Origin: Streptomyces lydicus
Lineage (GTDB): Bacteria > Actinomycetota > Actinomycetes > Streptomycetales > Streptomycetaceae
Assembly: GCF_001729485.1 (NCBI RefSeq)
Contig: NZ_CP017157.1
Coordinates: 7,254,001 to 7,318,000 of the forward strand
DNA: 64,000 bases
Direction of reading: 5' to 3'
Positions 54,859 to 64,000 of the stretch are shown here, piece after piece. Position 1 is the stretch's first letter, and every line of letters begins with the position of its first letter. The notes under the pieces were generated by a model. The model was not told the origin of the DNA and made no database searches. It was given only the letters and a program-made list of their open reading frames with translations. The position numbers and the translations under genes are program-made.

Positions 54859-56208
54859 TCAGATGGCCTGGACGGGGAGGGTCGGCAGGGCCGGGAGGAC
54901 CGGCAGGGCCGGAACGTTGGCGGCGTTGGTGAGACGGGCCAGGTCGGCGGGCACGGCCGGGACGGCGACGGCGTCGGTCAGGTGGGCCGGGACGGCGGGC
55001 ACGGAGGGCACCGAGGGAACGGAGGGCACCGACGGAACCGACGGGACGGACGGCACCGACGGGACGGACGGGGTCGCGGGCAGGGACGGGAGCGGGGTCG
55101 CGGCCTGCACGCCGGCGACGGCCTTGGTGGCGGTGCCCTTGCCGTCGGTCACGACGACGGTGGCCAGGCCCTTGGCGAACGGGACGGCGTCGGCGCCGGC
55201 ATCCTGGCCGAACGCCACGGCGTCGGCGGCCTTGCCCTGCGCGAACGGCACCGCGTCGGCGGCCTTGCCCTGCACGAAGGCGGTCGCGTCGGTGGCCGCG
55301 CCCTGCGCGAACGGCACCGCGTCACCGGCGGCACCCTGCACGAACAGCTGCGCCTGGCCGCCGACGACGGTCACGAACGGGGTGGCCTGGGCGGCCGCGT
55401 CACCGGCGAGCCGGCCGGCGCCGCCGGCCGCGCCCTGGGCGACCGGCACGACCTTGACGACGATCCGACGGGCGACGGGCGGCAGCGCGTCGGCGGCCGC
55501 GTTGTCGACGACTGGGCGGGCGGTGGCCAGCGCGGCCTGGGCCTGCTGGGTCAGCTGCTCGGGACGGATGCCGGCACCGGCGAGGCCGGCCAGCAGGTTG
55601 TCGGCGGAGCCGGGGGCCTTGGGCAGCGCGGGGGCCTTGGGCAGCTGGGGCAGGCCACCGGGCAGGTCGGCGGAGGGCACGCCCGGGGTGGCGGGCAGCG
55701 ACGGAACGGAGGGCACCGAGCCGTCCGTGAGGTGGCCGAGCTTGCCGAGGTCCGCGGCCTTGGCGACCTTGACAGCCTTCTTGACGGCCTTGGTGACCTT
55801 CTTGGCCTTCTTCGCGTCGACGGTCTTCGCGACCTGGCCGGTCTTCGGCAGGTCCGCGCCGCCCAGCAGCTGCTTCGCGCCGTCCACGGCGCCGGTGGCG
55901 TCACCGACCTGCGGCAGCTTGCCGGTGGGCAGGTCCTGGGTCGACACACCGCCGAGGGCGCCGGTCGCCTTGCCGGTCACGCCGCCCACCGTCTTCTGCG
56001 CGGGGCCGGCGACCTTCTTGACCGTCGTGGTGGCGGTGCCGGCCACGTCGCCGGTGGGCAGCTGCCGGGTGGCGTCGGTCACCGTGCCGGTGGCGGGCAG
56101 GTCCGTGGAGACGGGCAGCTCGGCGGCGTTGGCGGCGACGGAGCCGAGGGCCCACAGGCCGGTGGCGGCAGCGGCGACGACGACGGAACGACGGATGGTG
56201 GAACGCAT
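54859..56208 (-). CDS. Secreted low-complexity repeat protein
   Basis: A 449-residue exported protein. The signal peptide (MRSTIRRSVVVAAAATGLWALGSVAANA) is cut after residue 28. The mature part has no named domain: a Lys-rich coiled segment (about 125-150, KKAKKVTKAVKKAVK), a middle section of 11- to 13-residue units like AVPFAQGKAADAV (about 280-345), and a run of nine SVP triplets (about 390-416). Very Ala/Val/Pro-rich. It resembles surface or wall-associated proteins of streptomycetes in composition only. A ribosome site AAAGGA lies upstream. It heads no operon; the next gene upstream is also secreted. Confidence 0.75.
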   Translation of the reverse strand: MRSTIRRSVVVAAAATGLWALGSVAANAAELPVSTDLPATGTVTDATRQLPTGDVAGTATTTVKKVAGPAQKTVGGVTGKATGALGGVSTQDLPTGKLPQVGDATGAVDGAKQLLGGADLPKTGQVAKTVDAKKAKKVTKAVKKAVKVAKAADLGKLGHLTDGSVPSVPSLPATPGVPSADLPGGLPQLPKAPALPKAPGSADNLLAGLAGAGIRPEQLTQQAQAALATARPVVDNAAADALPPVARRIVVKVVPVAQGAAGGAGRLAGDAAAQATPFVTVVGGQAQLFVQGAAGDAVPFAQGAATDATAFVQGKAADAVPFAQGKAADAVAFGQDAGADAVPFAKGLATVVVTDGKGTATKAVAGVQAATPLPSLPATPSVPSVPSVPSVPSVPSVPSVPSVPAVPAHLTDAVAVPAVPADLARLTNAANVPALPVLPALPTLPVQAI

Positions 56209-57321: not shown

Positions 57322-58509
57322 TCACCGTTGCTCCGCCATGTCCGGTATGGGCAGCGGTCGTTTCTCCAGGGCGGCCGCCATGACGTCCGGGAAGAGGTCC
57401 GGTGTGCAGGCGAACGCCGGTGCGCCCAGGGCCGCGAGGGCCGCGGCGTGGCTCCGGTCGTAGGCCGGCGCGCCCTCGTCGGAGAGGGCGAGCAGGGTCA
57501 CGAACTGCACTCCGGACGCCTGCATCGCGGCGACCCGTTTGAGCATCTCGTCGCGGATACCGCCTTCGTAGAGGTCGCTGATGAGGACGACGACGGTGTC
57601 GGCGGGGCGGGTGATGCGTGACTGGCAGTAGGCCAGGGCGCGGTTGATGTCGGTGCCGCCGCCGAGTTGGGTGCCGAAGAGGACGTCGACGGGGTCGTCC
57701 AGTTGGTCCGTCAGGTCGACGACGGCGGTGTCGAAGACGACGAGTCTGGTGTCGAGGGCGCGCATGGACGCGAGGACGGCGCCGAAGACGGAGGCGTAGA
57801 CGACCGAGGCGGCCATCGAGCCGGACTGGTCGATGCAGAGCACCACGTCCTTTTTGACGGACTGTGCGGCCCGGCCGTGGCCGATGAGCCGCTCGGGTAC
57901 GACGGTGCGGTGTTCCGGCAGGTAGTTCTTGAGGTTCGCCCGGATGGTGCGGTCCCAGTCGATGTCGCGGTGGCGTGGGCGGCTGATGCGGGCGGAGCGG
58001 TCGAGGGCGCCGCCGAGGGTGGCGCGGGTGCGGGTGGCGAGTTTCTTCTCCAGCTGTGCGACGACCTTGCGGACGACGGCCCGTGCGGTCTCCTTGGTGG
58101 TCTCGGGCATGACGCGGTTGAGCGAGAGGAGGGTGCCCACCAGGTGCACGTCGGCCTCGACCGCTTCGAGCATTTCCGGTTCCAGCAGGAGCGCGGACAG
58201 TCCGAGCCGTTCGATGGCGTCGCGCTGCATCACCTGCACCACGGAGGACGGGAAGTACGTGCGGATGTCGCCGAGCCAGCGCGCGACGCCGGGGGCGGAG
58301 GCGCCGAGTCCTGCCGTGCGCCGTCCGCGGTCGGTGCCCTGGCCGTCGGCGCCCTTCTGCCGGCCGTAGAGCGCGGTGAGGGCACCGTCCATGGCGGCGT
58401 CGCGGCCGTGGAGTTCGTGTCCGGTGCCGTCGGCGGCGGCGCCGAGGACCAGGCGCCAGCGGCGGAGGCGTTCGGAGCCGTCGTCGCGGGTGGTCGTGGT
58501 AGTGGTCAA
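57322..58509 (-). CDS. VWA domain protein (CoxE-like) of a MoxR-VWA system
   Basis: A 395-residue protein. The C-terminal half (about 195-370) is a von Willebrand A domain with an intact metal site: D-Q-S-G-S in LCIDQSGSMAAS, GGTDINRAL and ISDLYEGG. The N-terminal half is helical and unnamed, with MQRDAIERLGLSALLLEPEMLEAVEADVHLVGTLLSLNRVMP. VWA proteins pair with MoxR ATPases to remodel or activate a target. It starts with TTG 58509, well supported by GGAGG 7 nt upstream and a TTGA overlap with the DUF5682 stop. Last gene of the minus-strand operon. Confidence 0.85.
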   Translation of the reverse strand: MTTTTTTRDDGSERLRRWRLVLGAAADGTGHELHGRDAAMDGALTALYGRQKGADGQGTDRGRRTAGLGASAPGVARWLGDIRTYFPSSVVQVMQRDAIERLGLSALLLEPEMLEAVEADVHLVGTLLSLNRVMPETTKETARAVVRKVVAQLEKKLATRTRATLGGALDRSARISRPRHRDIDWDRTIRANLKNYLPEHRTVVPERLIGHGRAAQSVKKDVVLCIDQSGSMAASVVYASVFGAVLASMRALDTRLVVFDTAVVDLTDQLDDPVDVLFGTQLGGGTDINRALAYCQSRITRPADTVVVLISDLYEGGIRDEMLKRVAAMQASGVQFVTLLALSDEGAPAYDRSHAAALAALGAPAFACTPDLFPDVMAAALEKRPLPIPDMAEQR

Positions 58510-60932
58510 CTCGCCACCTCCGTGAGGTCGTCGAAGCCGCGCTGTCCGTGTCCCAGCAGCAGTCGCAGGGTGGGGAGGACGGCCGCGGCGCGGTCGCGGT
58601 CCAGGCCGGGGCCGAAGCCGGGTGTGTCGGTGTCGGCGGCGGGTGCCGGGCCGGGTGTCGTGGTCGTGGGGCCGCGGCGGGCGAGTTCGCCGAGTGTGCG
58701 CCGCACCCCGGTGTCGTATGCGGCGAACGTGCGGCGCAGCAGGGGCAGTACGTCGGTGAACGCGCCGTCCGGGACGCCGGTGAGCCAGCCGTCGAGCAGG
58801 GCGAGCAGCCGGGTGTCGTGGACGAGCAGCATGCCGCCGTCCCCGCTGTCACCGTCGCCGGCGAAGCCCTCGATCCAGCCGGCCGCGTCGGCGGGTGGGG
58901 TGCCCGGTGAGAGGGCGAGTCCCATCAGCCGCTCGGCTCCCCCGTCGGCCAGGGCGCCTTCGTCGAGCAGCAGCCGGGTCGCCCGGCCGCGGATGAGGCC
59001 GGGGACGGTGTCCCGTTCGCTCAGTGTGCGCAGCACGTCGGCCCAGCGGGCGCGCAGGTCGGCCGGGCGGGCCGGGGGTGCGGTCCGCTGTCCGGTCCGC
59101 GGTCCGGCGGGGGGTTGCGGGGGGTTGTCCTCCTGGGCGAGGAGGGCGACGGCCCGGTGGGTGGCGTCGAGGTGGCCGCGCAGTTCGGCGGCGCCGTCCG
59201 CGTCCAGTCCGGGGCAGGCCGGTGGCAGTCCGACGAAGACCCGTTCGGCCAGGCCCGTCGCCACGTCGCGGAGTGCCGTGGCGTCGGTGCCGCGGACGTC
59301 GCCGTAGCGCACGGACCGTACGAGGGCGGGCAGCGCCCGGGCGAGGTGGCCGACGTCGGTGTCGAGGGCGGCGCGGTCGGCGAGTGCGCGCATCACCACC
59401 GGGAGGGCGTCCGGGAGTGCGGCGAGCAGGCAGTGTTCGGCGAGTGCGGTGACCTCGGCGAGGGAGGTCGCCGCGGTGGCTTCGGTGGTGGCCTTGGCGG
59501 TGGCCGCGGTGTGCACGGTGGTGCCCCAGACGCCGGCCTCGGCGACGCGCACGGCCAGTTCGGGTTCCCAGCGCAGCTGCCAGGTCTCGCGGAAGGTGCC
59601 GGTGCTGCCGCGGGAGCGGGCGGGTTCGCCCCAGGGGATGCCGAGCAGCCGCAGCCGGTGCAGCAGGCGGCTGCGTCCGGCGTCGGTGTCCTTGCGCAGG
59701 TCGAGCTGCAGTTCCCGTTCCAGGGCCTCGGGTTTGAGCCGCAGCGTCCGCTGGCTGCGGGTGAGGTCGCGCTGCAGGGGGACCGCGGGGGCGTCGTCGG
59801 GGACCTCGCCGAGGACCTCGCCGACGACCAGCCGGTCGTGGATGAGGGAGGACGGCGCGTCGGTGCCGTCGCCCATGACGGCGCGGATCGCGTCGTCCAG
59901 TTCGGTCAGGCCGGCCAGTGGGCGGCCGCGGACCGTGGCCAGTCCTTCGGCGAGCCGTACCGCTTCGATGACGTGGGCCGAGGAGACGGCGTAGTCCTCT
60001 TCCCGCAGCACTCCGGCGACCTTGGTCAGCCAGCGTTCGACGGGGCGGTCGGGGGCGCTGAAGAGGTGGCCGTACCAGCCGGGGGAGGCGATGCCGGCGC
60101 CGTAGCCGCTGTGCCGGGAGAGCCGCCGGTGGGTCCACGGCACCCAGGTGGTCGCCACCTTGGCCTTCGGCAGCCCCTTGAGCAGCTGCCGGTCGGCGGC
60201 CACGGTGGTGCGCCGCGCCAGCGCCGGGACGTGCCAGGCGCCGCACACGACGGCGAGGTCGTCCCCGAATTCCTTGCGGGCGGCCCGCAGGCGGAGCCGC
60301 ATGTGGGCCTCGCGGAGCGGGTCGCGGTGGTGTCCGCCGTCGCCGTACGCCTCGCGGAGCGCCGCCATCGCCTCCGCCAGCGCCGCGAACGGGGCCAGTG
60401 GATCCGCGTCGGGGTGCGCCCCGTCGGGCGCGGTGCCGCGGTGCTCGATCACGTCCTCCCACCAGCGTTCGGGGTCGTCGTAGCCGGCGGTCCCGGCCAG
60501 TGCCCGGATCGGGTCGATCCGTACGTCGGTGGCGTCGGGGGCCGCGCCGTCGGTGGCCCGGTCGGTGTCGGTGCTCCCGTCGTCCTGCGGCATCGCCAGG
60601 GTGTGCGCGGCGGGCAGGTCGATGAAGCGGACGGGGACGTCGTGCCGCAGGGCCCAGCGCAGCGCGACCCATTCCGGGGAGAACTCGGCCAGCGGCCAGA
60701 ACGCGGCGCGGCCCGGATCGTCCTGTACGTGGGCGAGCAGCGCGACGGGGGGCCGCATGCCGTCCCGGGCGGCCAGTGGCACCAGTGCGTCGGCCTCGGG
60801 CGGTCCTTCGATCAGGACCGCGGCGGGTGCGCACCGCTCCAGTGCGGCGCGCACCGCCCGTGCCGAGCCGGGGCCGTGGTGCCGCACGCCGAGCAGCGCC
60901 GGCCGGGGGCCGTCCGCCGTGCGCCCGCTCAT
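58506..60932 (-). CDS. DUF5682 family protein with TraB/ChaN-like N-terminus
   Basis: An 808-residue protein matching DUF5682 as found beside MoxR-VWA genes. The N-terminal 240 residues look like the TIKI/TraB/ChaN fold: G15-V-R-H-H-G-P-G-S23, E42-G-P-P-E46 and G231-A-W-H234, that is, two GxxH motifs and a conserved Glu that could bind metal. This is my reading and is not established. The C-terminal 550 residues are helical and unnamed. It overlaps MoxR (ATGA) and VWA (TTGA), so all three should be made together. No signal or membrane segment. Confidence 0.8.
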   Translation of the reverse strand: MSGRTADGPRPALLGVRHHGPGSARAVRAALERCAPAAVLIEGPPEADALVPLAARDGMRPPVALLAHVQDDPGRAAFWPLAEFSPEWVALRWALRHDVPVRFIDLPAAHTLAMPQDDGSTDTDRATDGAAPDATDVRIDPIRALAGTAGYDDPERWWEDVIEHRGTAPDGAHPDADPLAPFAALAEAMAALREAYGDGGHHRDPLREAHMRLRLRAARKEFGDDLAVVCGAWHVPALARRTTVAADRQLLKGLPKAKVATTWVPWTHRRLSRHSGYGAGIASPGWYGHLFSAPDRPVERWLTKVAGVLREEDYAVSSAHVIEAVRLAEGLATVRGRPLAGLTELDDAIRAVMGDGTDAPSSLIHDRLVVGEVLGEVPDDAPAVPLQRDLTRSQRTLRLKPEALERELQLDLRKDTDAGRSRLLHRLRLLGIPWGEPARSRGSTGTFRETWQLRWEPELAVRVAEAGVWGTTVHTAATAKATTEATAATSLAEVTALAEHCLLAALPDALPVVMRALADRAALDTDVGHLARALPALVRSVRYGDVRGTDATALRDVATGLAERVFVGLPPACPGLDADGAAELRGHLDATHRAVALLAQEDNPPQPPAGPRTGQRTAPPARPADLRARWADVLRTLSERDTVPGLIRGRATRLLLDEGALADGGAERLMGLALSPGTPPADAAGWIEGFAGDGDSGDGGMLLVHDTRLLALLDGWLTGVPDGAFTDVLPLLRRTFAAYDTGVRRTLGELARRGPTTTTPGPAPAADTDTPGFGPGLDRDRAAAVLPTLRLLLGHGQRGFDDLTEVAS

Positions 60933-62095
60933 GCGCTCACCTCGCGGCAGGCGCGGTAGAAGTCCTTCCAGCCGTCGCGTTCCCGTACGACCGTTTCGAG
61001 GTACTCCTGCCAGACGACCCGGTCGGCGGCCGGGTCGCGGACCACAGCGCCCAGGATGCCGGCGGCCACGTCACCGGAGCGCAGTACGCCGTCGCCGAAG
61101 TGGGTGGCCAGTGCCAGGCCGTTCGTCACCACCGAGATGGCCTCGGCGGTGGAGAGGGTGCCGGACGGCGACTTGAGTTTCGTACGGCCGTCGGTGGTGC
61201 GGCCGTCGCGCAGTTCGCGGAAGACGGTGACGACGCGGCGGATCTCGTCGAGGCCCTCCGGGGCGGGCGGCAGGTCCAGCGAGCGGCCGATCTGGCCGAC
61301 GCGGCGCGAGACGATGTCCACCTCTTCGTCGGGTGTCGCGGGCAGCGGCAGGACGACGGTGTTGAAGCGGCGGCGCAGCGCGCTGGAGAGTTCGTTGACA
61401 CCGCGGTCGCGGTCGTTGGCGGTGGCGATGAGGTTGAAGCCGCGGACGGCCTGCACCTCCTGGCCCAGTTCCGGGATGGGCAGGGTCTTCTCCGACAGGA
61501 CGGTGATGAGGGTGTCCTGCACGTCGGCGGGGATGCGGGTGAGTTCCTCGACCCGGGCGGTCATGCCGTGGGCCATGGCGCGCATCACGGGGCTGGGTAC
61601 CAGGGCGTCGCGGCTGGGGCCGTTGGCGAGCAGCTGGGCGTAGTTCCAGCCGTAGCGGATCGCTTCCTCGGGGGTGCCGGCGGTGCCCTGCACGAGGAGG
61701 GTGGAGTCGCCGCTGACGGCTGCCGCCAGGTGTTCGGAGACCCAGGTCTTGGCGGTGCCGGGCACGCCGAGCAGCAGCAGCGCGCGGTCGGTGGCGAGCG
61801 TGGTCACGGCGACTTCGACGATGCGGCGCGGGCCGACGTATTTGGGTGTGATGACCGTGCCGTCGGCGAGGGTGCCGCCGAGGAGGTACGTGGCGACCGC
61901 CCAGGGCGAGAGCCGCCAGCGCGCGGGGCGCGGCCGGTCGTCGGCGGCGGCGAGGGCCTTGAGTTCGTCGGCGAAGGTGTCTTCGGCGTGCGGTCGCAGC
62001 GCTTCGCCGCCCCCGGTGTCCGGCGCCGCTGCGGCCGGCCGGGCGGGGTCGTTCCCCGCCGCGTCGTGCGTCGTGTGATCGGTGGTCTCGGACAT
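60929..62095 (-). CDS. MoxR-like AAA+ ATPase
   Basis: A 388-residue AAA+ ATPase: Walker A in LLLGVPGTAKTWVSEHL, an acidic Walker B-like ARVEELTRIPADVQDTLITVLSEKTLP, sensor 1 NLIATANDRDRGVNELSSALRRRFNTVVLPLP with the arginine finger. The first 50 residues are an acidic extension. ATG 62095 has AGGGGGAG just upstream and is preferred to the opening at 62113. It is the first gene of the operon with DUF5682 and VWA, and its divergent promoter has a DNA-damage-type motif. The family predicts a chaperone-like activator working with the VWA partner. Confidence 0.9.
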   Translation of the reverse strand: MSETTDHTTHDAAGNDPARPAAAAPDTGGGEALRPHAEDTFADELKALAAADDRPRPARWRLSPWAVATYLLGGTLADGTVITPKYVGPRRIVEVAVTTLATDRALLLLGVPGTAKTWVSEHLAAAVSGDSTLLVQGTAGTPEEAIRYGWNYAQLLANGPSRDALVPSPVMRAMAHGMTARVEELTRIPADVQDTLITVLSEKTLPIPELGQEVQAVRGFNLIATANDRDRGVNELSSALRRRFNTVVLPLPATPDEEVDIVSRRVGQIGRSLDLPPAPEGLDEIRRVVTVFRELRDGRTTDGRTKLKSPSGTLSTAEAISVVTNGLALATHFGDGVLRSGDVAAGILGAVVRDPAADRVVWQEYLETVVRERDGWKDFYRACREVSA

Positions 62096-62161
62096 GGCTC
62101 CCCCTAGTCGCAAGGACTGCGGCCGACACCGCGGAAATCCCTTCGGCCGCTTGCTGGATCA

Positions 62162-62184
62162 ACCCTGCACCACACCACTGACAA
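62162..62184 (-). promoter_or_regulatory. PafBC/RecA-NDp-like promoter for the MoxR operon
   Basis: On the minus strand TTGTCAGTG (62184-62176) is followed after exactly 8 nt by CAGGGT (62167-62162). The damage-promoter consensus is TTGTCRGTG-N8-TAnnnT; the -10 differs at its first base. The predicted start near 62155 would leave a leader of about 60 nt. Confidence 0.65.
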
Positions 62185-62233
62185 CGCCCCTGGAACCCGC
62201 TCTGACCTGCGGTTTCGATGTGGGCGAGGGGGA

Positions 62234-62256
62234 TTGTCAGTGGTGCGCCGTAGCGT
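62234..62256 (+). promoter_or_regulatory. PafBC/RecA-NDp-like promoter for the SWIM gene
   Basis: TTGTCAGTG at 62234-62242, 8 nt, then TAGCGT at 62251-62256 fits TTGTCRGTG-N8-TAnnnT fully. With the usual 6-7 nt to the start point, transcription would begin at or next to the ATG at 62264, giving a leaderless mRNA. Confidence 0.75.
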
Positions 62257-62263
62257 CGTTGAC

Positions 62264-63628
62264 ATGAATCCGCTGGGGGAACGCTGGACGACGGATCAGG
62301 TGCTCGCACTGGCACCTGACGAGGCATCACGCAGGGCGGGCGGCAAGCTCGCGGCGCCCGGGCCGTGGTCGGGGACGGGCGCGGACGACGGCGCGGTGTG
62401 GGGGCTGTGCAAGGGCAGCGGCAGGACGCCGTATCAGGCGGTGGTGGACATCAAGGGGCCGGCTTTCCGGTGCAGTTGTCCGAGCCGGAAGTTTCCGTGC
62501 AAGCACGCGCTGGGGCTGCTGCTGCTCTGGGCGGGGGACGCCGGGGCGGTGGCGGGCGGGGAGCCGCCGCAGTGGGCGGGTGAGTGGCTGGCCGGCCGTC
62601 GTGAGCGGCCCGGTGGGCCGGGGGGCGCGGCCGCCGGTTCCGGTGCCGCCTCGCGGGCGCCCGCCGATCCGGCGGCGGCCGAGCGACGGGCGGAGCGCCG
62701 GATGCGGCGCATCGGCGCGGGCGCGACGGAGTTGGAGCAGCGGCTGGAGGACCTGCTGCAGTCGGGGCTGGCCTCGGCCGACCGCGCCGGCGGGGGCGGT
62801 TCCTGGGACGAGACGGCGGCGCGCATGGTCGACGCGCAGGCGCCCGGGCTGGCCGCGCGGGCGCGGGAGTTGGGGTCGCTGGTGGCGTCGGGGCCGGACT
62901 GGCCGGCGCGGCTGCTGGAGGAGTGTGCGCTGCTGCATCTGCTCGGCCGGGGCTTCCTCGGCATCGAGGGCCTGCCGGCGCCGCTCGCGGCGACGGTCCG
63001 GTCGCGGGTCGGTCTGACGACGGAGGCGGCGGAGCTGCTGGCCGGTCCCGACGCGGCGACGGTGCGGGACCGCTGGCTGGTGCTCGCCCAACAGGACAGC
63101 GACGACGGCGCGCTGACCACCCGCCGCATCCATCTGCGGGGTGAGCGGACCGGGCGGATGGCGCTGCACCTGTCCTTCGGCGGTGCCCATCGTCCGCTGG
63201 ACGTGGCGCTGCCGCCCGGTCTGGTGCTCGACGCGGACCTGGCGTTCTACCCGGGTGCCCGGCCGCTGCGCGCCGCCCTCGGGGAGCGGCATGCCCCGGC
63301 GGTTCCGGGGCCGGTGCCGCCGGGCTGCGGCATCGACGCCGCGCTGGCCGCGTACGGCGATGCGCTGCGCGACGACCCGTGGCTGGAGTCCTGGCCGGTG
63401 GTGCTCGCGGACGTCACGCCGATACCGGGCCGGGACGGCGCGGGCTGGCAACTGGCCGACGCGGACGGCGAGTCGGCGCTTCCGTTGGACCCGCGCTGTC
63501 CGGGCCGTACGGGGCTCTGGCAGCTGGCCGCCATATCGGGTGGTGCGCCGGTCACGGTCTTCGGCGAGTGCGGCCACCGCGGCTTCCTGCCGCTGACCGT
63601 CTGGGACCCGGCCCCGGTGTCCCTGTGA
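62264..63628 (+). CDS. SWIM zinc finger protein
   Basis: A 454-residue protein with an N-terminal SWIM motif C70-S-C72...C79-K-H81 (FRCSCPSRKFPCKHALGLLL), a zinc module used for DNA or protein contacts. After it come a Glu/Arg-rich helical segment (about 140-215) and a larger unnamed domain with HLLGRGFLGIEGLPAPLAATVRSRVGLTTEAAELLAGPDAATVRDRWLVL. It diverges from the MoxR operon and is followed 78 bp later by the DUF5691 gene. ATG 62264 is chosen over 62234 because the latter falls in the -35 element of the predicted promoter; no ribosome site is needed if leaderless. Confidence 0.85.
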   Translation: MNPLGERWTTDQVLALAPDEASRRAGGKLAAPGPWSGTGADDGAVWGLCKGSGRTPYQAVVDIKGPAFRCSCPSRKFPCKHALGLLLLWAGDAGAVAGGEPPQWAGEWLAGRRERPGGPGGAAAGSGAASRAPADPAAAERRAERRMRRIGAGATELEQRLEDLLQSGLASADRAGGGGSWDETAARMVDAQAPGLAARARELGSLVASGPDWPARLLEECALLHLLGRGFLGIEGLPAPLAATVRSRVGLTTEAAELLAGPDAATVRDRWLVLAQQDSDDGALTTRRIHLRGERTGRMALHLSFGGAHRPLDVALPPGLVLDADLAFYPGARPLRAALGERHAPAVPGPVPPGCGIDAALAAYGDALRDDPWLESWPVVLADVTPIPGRDGAGWQLADADGESALPLDPRCPGRTGLWQLAAISGGAPVTVFGECGHRGFLPLTVWDPAPVSL

Positions 63629-63706: not shown

Positions 63707-64000
63707 ATGACGACAACCACCAGCCCTGACGCCGCCCGCACGGCCGGCGACACCACACCCGCATCACCTGCTGCACCCGCCACACCGGCTTCACCTGCCG
63801 CGGCGGCAGCAGCCGACCCGTCCACCGCGCTCACCACCGCCGCCGCGCCCGCCGCTCCCCCGCCCGTCGCGGCCGCTCCCGCGCCCTGGTCCGCGCTCGT
63901 GAACGCGGCGCTGCTCGGGACCGAGCGGCGGCTGCCGCCGGTGGCGGTGCGGCCCGGCCAGGGTGCCGCGGCCGCGCTGCTGGACGCGGCCGCGGTGAGC
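63707..64000 (+). CDS. DUF5691 family protein (5' part only)
   Basis: The first 98 codons of a gene running off the right edge. After a 60-residue Ala/Thr/Pro-rich flexible head comes WSALVNAALLGTERRLPPVAV, the opening signature I associate with DUF5691 proteins found next to SWIM and MoxR-VWA genes. GGAGGAAGGGC precedes the ATG and gives a strong ribosome site. It is probably co-transcribed with the SWIM gene. Role unknown; no stop codon in the window. Confidence 0.7.
   Translation, partial: MTTTTSPDAARTAGDTTPASPAAPATPASPAAAAAADPSTALTTAAAPAAPPPVAAAPAPWSALVNAALLGTERRLPPVAVRPGQGAAAALLDAAAVS

Follow-up and report, generated by a model that had tools for sequence, protein, structure and literature searches.

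Does the divergent intergenic region that separates the SWIM-DUF5691 genes from the MoxR-DUF5682-VWA genes in Streptomyces lydicus act as a DNA-damage promoter in both directions, and would its two halves then work separately or as one unit? The window analysed is a stretch of 64,000 nucleotides (contig NZ_CP017157.1, positions 7,254,001 to 7,318,000 of the forward strand), and the features on which the argument depends are given below in window coordinates.

62234..62242, + strand: SWIM-side -26 element TTGTCAGTG of a RecA-NDp (PafBC-type) promoter; at most one mismatch in 113/113 SWIM upstream regions of the genus
62251..62256, + strand: SWIM-side -10 hexamer TAGCGT, 8 nt past the -26 element; TANNNT in 110/110 regions
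62176..62184, - strand: MoxR-side -26 element TTGTCAGTG; at most one mismatch in 100/113 regions, within the stretch read
62162..62167, - strand: MoxR-side -10 hexamer CAGGGT, 8 nt past the -26 element; CA first in 96/97 and T last in 97/97
62202..62210, - strand: third (accessory) box GCAGGTCAG, which faces the MoxR-side -26 element from 17 bp upstream
62264..63628, + strand: SWIM zinc-finger protein, 454 aa, predicted leaderless start
63707..64000, + strand: DUF5691 protein, 597 aa, extending beyond the window (PF18944, E 6.8e-172)
60929..62095, - strand: MoxR-type AAA+ ATPase, relative of E. coli YehL (38% identity, E 1.8e-70)
58506..60932, - strand: DUF5682 protein, relative of E. coli YehM (E 2.1e-38)
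57322..58509, - strand: VWA (CoxE-type) protein, relative of E. coli YehP (E 4.1e-75)

The initial annotation of this region described two outward-facing elements, each followed after 8 nt by a -10-like hexamer, and both are present as listed. On the + strand, 62234-62256 reads TTGTCAGTGGTGCGCCGTAGCGT, an exact match to TTGTCAGTG-N8-TANNNT that confirms TAGCGT as a full -10 match, while on the - strand 62184-62162 reads TTGTCAGTGGTGTGGTGCAGGGT, whose only departure from this pattern is a C in place of T as the opening base of the -10. The annotation was therefore correct to count one mismatch in CAGGGT, but because CA is found in 96/97 species this mismatch is a conserved feature of the MoxR side and not a sign of decay. 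Likewise, the 12-bp inverted repeat that it reported is perfect and real in the window, although strong conservation in relatives is limited to the TTGTCAGTG core plus G. The ATG of the SWIM gene, at 62264, lies 7 nt after the -10 and therefore the SWIM mRNA would be leaderless, with a predicted start at 62263/62264; the DUF5691 gene follows 78 bp downstream on the same strand. On the other side the MoxR ATG at 62095 is preceded by GGGGGAG, with a leader of ~60 nt and a transcript start predicted near 62155. For the pair as such, 0.29 matches with up to two mismatches are expected in the window and two were found, a result that 4/100 shuffles also reach, and therefore the window by itself is weak evidence. 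This arrangement is only mildly unlikely in the window alone, and it is conservation across genomes that provides the decisive evidence.

The SWIM gene was found in 113/121 genomes of the genus, and we read 300 bp upstream of the SWIM match in 110 of these regions and about 900 bp in the other three. The SWIM-side element was intact in 106 of the 113 upstream regions and carried a single mismatch in seven. Taking the best match as the MoxR-side element, with ties broken towards a 37-bp gap, we detected both elements (at most one mismatch each) in 100/113 genomes with the SWIM gene; in the other 13 regions no MoxR-side element of this quality was found in the stretch read, and it may lie further off. 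The consensus of the 110 regions also places the ATG 7 nt downstream of the -10. A search for the pair as CACYGACAA-N36..66-TTGTCRGTG gave matches in 74/121 genus genomes and 0 in each for the reversed control, and in hold-out Streptomyces genomes from a separate draw both elements were present in 8/8.

The sequence of the locus fits the consensus tTGTCRgtg-8 nt-TannnT printed in PMC5656591 for the RecA-NDp promoters of mycobacteria, in which TANNNT follows after exactly 8 nt. This -10 is found on the SWIM side in 110/110 regions and is replaced on the MoxR side by CANNNT in 96/97. To place this in its genomic context we scanned the host genome (8.2 Mb, a single contig) and found at least 53 sites for TTGTCRGTG-N8-YANNNT, against 0 for the reversed pattern, a lower bound as sites with T at the first pattern base are left out. 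The first base of the -10 is C in 20 of these 53 sites, where the pattern admitted only C or T; given this and the conserved CANNNT, we therefore file the MoxR side as a variant that would work like a RecA-NDp promoter. Allowing up to two mismatches to the TANNNT form gave 464 sites, against 169 for the reversed control. Among the 26 exact sites in the host genome, part of which were assigned to a gene with gene starts judged by eye, several lie upstream of recA, uvrB, uvrC and ruvC, and others stand, by Pfam among other evidence, ahead of genes for a MgsA/RarA-type ATPase, a uracil-DNA glycosylase, a UvrD-type helicase, an ABC transporter and a DNA polymerase III alpha subunit.

The host also encodes the expected activator, with pafB and pafC represented by two WYL genes 2-3 kb downstream of a Pup-ligase match. 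The product of the first matches chain 7p5x_AY (Transcriptional regulator-like protein; E 1.2e-50) and PafBC chain 6sj9_A (E 5.9e-39), and that of the second matches PafC (7p5x_AX, E 3.1e-55); in all there are nine WYL matches in this genome, PafB and PafC included. The initial annotation had assigned the promoters to the RecA/LexA-independent, PafBC-dependent damage class defined in mycobacteria. The fit to the consensus and the presence of pafB and pafC support this reading on sequence grounds, although the class is already known and is not mycobacterial only. In the passages available, PMC5087735 reports a RecA-NDp promoter for the UV-induced S. coelicolor gene SCO6735 and cites work on that of S. 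rimosus recA, and PMC9411070 likewise documents RecA-NDp in Streptomyces. For mycobacteria, the accessible part of PMC11804915 describes PafBC as activated by single-stranded DNA and as acting by sigma adaptation with a -26 element. From the same features we infer that the divergon would be induced by DNA damage in a PafBC-dependent manner. As far as its passages show, PMC9380542 reports an initial search that pointed to no conservation of the M. smegmatis motif in S. venezuelae, and leaves undecided if a RecA/LexA-independent damage response exists in Streptomyces. Our data bear on that question and, genus-wide, disagree with the suggestion of non-conservation, as the motif is abundant in the host genome and nearly invariant in the genus at the divergon. 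A table in PMC5656591, in the portion seen, places MoxR1 and MoxR2 among the proteins whose levels fall when pafBC is deleted in M. smegmatis.

The locus shares with the mycobacterial RecA-NDp (P1) promoters of the PafBC regulon the TTGTCRGTG element, the 8-nt spacer, the TANNNT hexamer, repair genes downstream and a host with PafB and PafC. However, it differs from them in having an outward pair in helical register, one conserved CANNNT -10 and a GCAGGTCRG box between the elements. Likewise, the SCO6735 and S. rimosus recA promoters belong to the same type and the same genus, with SCO6735 UV-induced, but they are single, and the passages of PMC5087735 describe no paired or phased layout for them.

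We then compared across species how far apart the two elements stand, counted from inner edge to inner edge. The gaps fell into narrow bins that follow each other at about 11-12 bp, namely 25-27 bp (n=10), 36-38 bp (n=53), 47-50 bp (n=14), 60-61 bp (n=13) and 71 bp (n=1), which together account for 91/100 divergons, with no gap at 28-35, 39-46, 51-59 or 62-70 bp among the 100. Nine longer gaps lay outside these bins (81, 84, 92, 107, 110, 126, 164, 184 and 595 bp). For the 90 gaps of up to 75 bp the best period was 11.7 bp, with a resultant of 0.91 against 0.74 at 10.5 bp; helical repeats measured in vivo by looping are ~11 bp, and the observed period would agree with that. A tree built from the coding flanks of the same locus (110 rows, 404 columns), which is weak, requires the spacing class to change at least 25 times when 97 rows are scored with the long gaps as one class. 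Of 21 pairs on non-overlapping paths of this tree, eight differed in gap by 1-2 bp and 13 by more, the larger differences being 9, 10, 11, 11, 11, 12, 12, 13, 22, 22, 24, 25 and 44 bp; a binomial test on these gave 11/13 and p 5e-4, with windows that were set after the data had been seen. In the hold-out genomes 7/8 gaps were 36, 37 or 61 bp, inside the bins, and one was 569 bp. The two longest-spaced divergons, L250 and L296, have 569 and 595 bp between their elements. That the spacing shifts by roughly a helical turn at a time suggests that the elements and the box are held in register.

The box itself was counted in divergons with both elements and a gap of up to 75 bp, so that 90/110 were used and those with a longer gap or a missing element were left out. 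One box with at most one mismatch to GCAGGTCRG lay between the elements in 88/90 and two boxes in none, while the reversed box was found in 2/90. It pointed towards MoxR in 49 and towards SWIM in 39, and stood either 5-6 bp (77) or 16-18 bp (11) from the element that it faced, with the opposite element at 11-12, 22-23, 34-35, 45-47 or 57 bp. A perfect box at 5-6 bp was present in 6/8 hold-out regions. Of three genus regions read last, one had a box (one mismatch, 6 bp) and two had none at this threshold; among 11 last-read regions the box was either absent at up to one mismatch or oddly placed in L298, L250 and L268, and in L297 it needs two mismatches. A preference for T or A five bases ahead of the box was seen in the independent set too.

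The box is not confined to the divergon and stands ahead of further repair-type promoters as well. GCAGGTCRG-N4..7-TTGTCAGTG occurs at 78 places in 45/61 genus genomes, with 0 for the control, and the places listed all have N5 or N6; it was not found in the genome from which the window was taken. In that genome boxes with at most one mismatch, scanned at 0-17 bp from the 53 sites, lie at 6, 6, 6, 7, 17 and 17 bp, the last two being this locus and uvrB. At uvrB (own genome 2205733-2205781, L006) a perfect GCAGGTCGG box precedes the -26 element by 17 bp, as far as the box does in the window's divergon. At a GNAT acetyltransferase gene (L028:1501-1523, own genome 385806-385828) 6 bp separate GCAGGTCGG from the CTGTCAGTG that follows it, and the start is of leaderless type, so that in the host genome its promoter takes the box-plus-element form with one mismatch. 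We also hand-picked 20 box promoters outside the divergon and named their genes by translation, with Pfam for one per kind (six proteins). At 17 of the 20 these were SAV_6107-like HEPN genes (5), pentapeptide-repeat genes (4), Lhr-type helicase genes (3), DNA polymerase A-like genes (2), SWIM genes of a second kind (2) and a GNAT gene (1). The SAV_6107-like HEPN genes (L229, L233, L234, L239 and L248; Pfam on L229 only) have a GCAGGTCRG-plus-TTGTCAGTG promoter with a CACGAT -10. The second kind of SWIM gene (L237:76-1479, - strand, and L243) encodes a C-terminal SWIM domain and an HTH_PafC similarity below the cut-off, and has a box-plus-RecA-NDp promoter with a TACGGT -10. We considered whether the third box is required where the -10 is a weak CANNNT, as CA is present in 16/20 box promoters outside the divergon, but this did not hold as a rule, as the SWIM promoters that are faced by the box have TA. 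No description of paired, phased RecA-NDp promoters or of the third box was found in the literature passages available, and this architecture is new as far as our searches reach, which covered passages and not whole texts, with most subscription journals missing.

Taken together, we think that the region is probably a bidirectional DNA-damage promoter, of PafBC type in each direction and phased with the third box. On damage, single-stranded DNA would activate PafBC, by the mechanism described in mycobacteria, and PafBC would make the -26 element TTGTCAGTG, combined with a weak -10, usable by the housekeeping RNA polymerase. One promoter would then give a leaderless SWIM-DUF5691 transcript and the other a MoxR-DUF5682-VWA transcript, and parts of a YehLMPQ-like chaperone/ATPase would be co-induced with recA and uvrB. 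The helical register of elements and box suggests that two polymerase-PafBC complexes and the box binder could form one phased assembly and not two independent promoters; the binding, induction, co-induction and operon transcripts in this scheme are what we infer. A more far-reaching version, which we put forward tentatively and hold to be somewhat doubtful, is that this is an extended two-site PafBC promoter, in which a phased GCAGGTCRG that precedes the -26 element by a turn or two is bound by a second PafBC or another partner, one box serves both divergon promoters as a single switch, and YehLMPQ-type MoxR systems are LexA-independent damage effectors. The series of helical-step spacings that occurs naturally across species is a ready experiment on two sigma-adapted polymerases that share one intergenic region.

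Other explanations have to be set against this. PafBC-type promoters might work independently of each other, with spacing classes that stem from common descent plus a handful of chance insertions, and a box that belongs to an unrelated one-gene regulator. The weak tree, the shared spacing of near relatives, a box that faces only one of the two promoters per species, and 9/100 gaps outside the bins would all be compatible with this; however, it has to accommodate at least 25 changes of spacing class on the tree, independent differences that cluster at multiples of ~11 bp, steps in both the near and the far box distances, and boxes that also stand 5-6 bp before TTGTCAGTG of other genes, and we therefore regard it as unlikely. 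The involvement of LexA, as sole or additional regulator of the divergon, seems to us very improbable. The LexA consensus is TCGAAC-N4-GTTCGA, and a scan for this palindrome with up to two mismatches found it in only 2/110 upstream regions, that of the window not among them. Streptomyces does have a LexA regulon (PMC9380542) and several mycobacterial genes carry both motifs (PMC8223512), as far as the available parts of these papers go.

The identity of the activator could also differ, and the -26 element be read in Streptomyces by ClgR, another WYL protein or an alternative sigma factor. We judge this improbable, since pafB and pafC are present and close to structurally solved proteins, and since the motif, which mycobacterial work links to PafBC, has genes of the same sort behind it. 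In favour of this reading, the genome holds nine WYL matches with PafB and PafC among them, PMC5656591 cites in the passages seen work according to which the P1 promoter region of M. smegmatis is recognised by ClgR, and PMC9380542, in the part available, saw no conservation of the M. smegmatis motif in S. venezuelae. That housekeeping promoters have merely acquired a chance inverted repeat, with no link to DNA damage, is scarcely credible: the pair is only mildly unlikely within the window, but conservation in 113/113 regions, 53 sites against 0 for the control and repair genes among the targets all speak against it.

We next assessed whether the SWIM gene is accompanied by this promoter outside Streptomyces. 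A class-level search found the SWIM gene in 22 genomes of other genera, and of 14 such loci read, six had a site with at most one mismatch right before the presumed SWIM start and eight did not. A named scan with one class-level protein gave 17 loci, mostly from Nocardiopsis, and at the 13 that were long enough SWIM-x-MoxR-DUF5682-VWA run in one direction. In Nocardiopsis and Glycomyces 11/14 loci had a site at -29 or -30 of SWIM (up to two mismatches; seven with at most one), with no such site at the other 3/14, at two Actinomadura loci or at a Bacteroidota locus. A phylum search added 12 loci of other genera, nine of them with SWIM and MoxR co-directional, and here no promoter of this type was found right before either gene, bar a poor candidate at L108. 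The loci L267 and L102 are one and the same, as are the stretches L278 and L270 (protein 100% identity), so these counts overlap in part. Since co-directional Nocardiopsis loci carry the site and most distant loci do not, the link between SWIM and the promoter neither requires divergent genes nor holds everywhere. Want of PafBC as the reason why distant lineages are promoter-less was unsupported, with a PafC-type HTH match in 27/27 genomes tested, promoter-less ones included; this is a weak test, as PF19187 also matches the E. coli and B. subtilis controls.

As for the genes themselves, the closest known counterpart is the E. coli yehL-yehM-yehP-yehQ run, which has a homologous MoxR ATPase, DUF5682 protein and VWA protein, each in the Pfam family of its counterpart here, in one gene run with a SWIM gene adjacent, but unlike the locus here it runs in a single direction and has no gene annotated DUF5691 in the stretch seen. 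SWIM and YehQ both match PF04434, but BLASTP gave nothing significant (best E 2.0, to YehQ), and no likeness was detected beyond the SWIM domain. We also read six paralogous MoxR loci (L104 and L114-L118). An exact RecA-NDp site stands before the first gene, encoding DUF4132 or WGR-DUF4132, of a MoxR-DUF5682-VWA run at L114:1063 and L116:3839, a site with one mismatch heads the run at L115:1141, and in L117 and L118 an exact site lies a few kb ahead of MoxR; at L104 no RecA-NDp site was found. These sites heading paralogous runs therefore suggest that several Streptomyces MoxR systems are damage-regulated. In E. coli, genes for WGR (YehF) and DUF4132 (YehI) proteins are likewise near yehL-Q. 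WGR domains in PARP proteins bind DNA breaks, and together with the WGR/DUF4132 association this makes a role of the MoxR system near damaged DNA plausible. The promoters thus offer a functional lead for the MoxR-DUF5682-VWA-SWIM-DUF5691 set, and suggest that this little-studied ATPase system may belong to the DNA-damage response.

With the MoxR-vWA ternary conflict systems of PMC7159879, as described in the text available, the locus has in common a MoxR and VWA pair plus a third component, but its bpMoxR profile score is 22.8 bits, below the cut-off of 27, and membership of the beta-propeller MoxR-vWA ternary systems was rejected on this score; the words SWIM, WGR and YehL are absent from the main text of that paper. 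Likewise, a known anti-phage defence system was rejected, as PADLOC models match 0/5 proteins, and NCBIfam profiles gave only matches far below cut-off on the proteins of the locus. No paper on DUF5682 or DUF5691 was found in the literature searched, from which most subscription journals are missing. Further along the window, an ORF with many VPSVPS-type repeats (54859-56208, - strand) lies between sucC-like genes and those of the MoxR operon.
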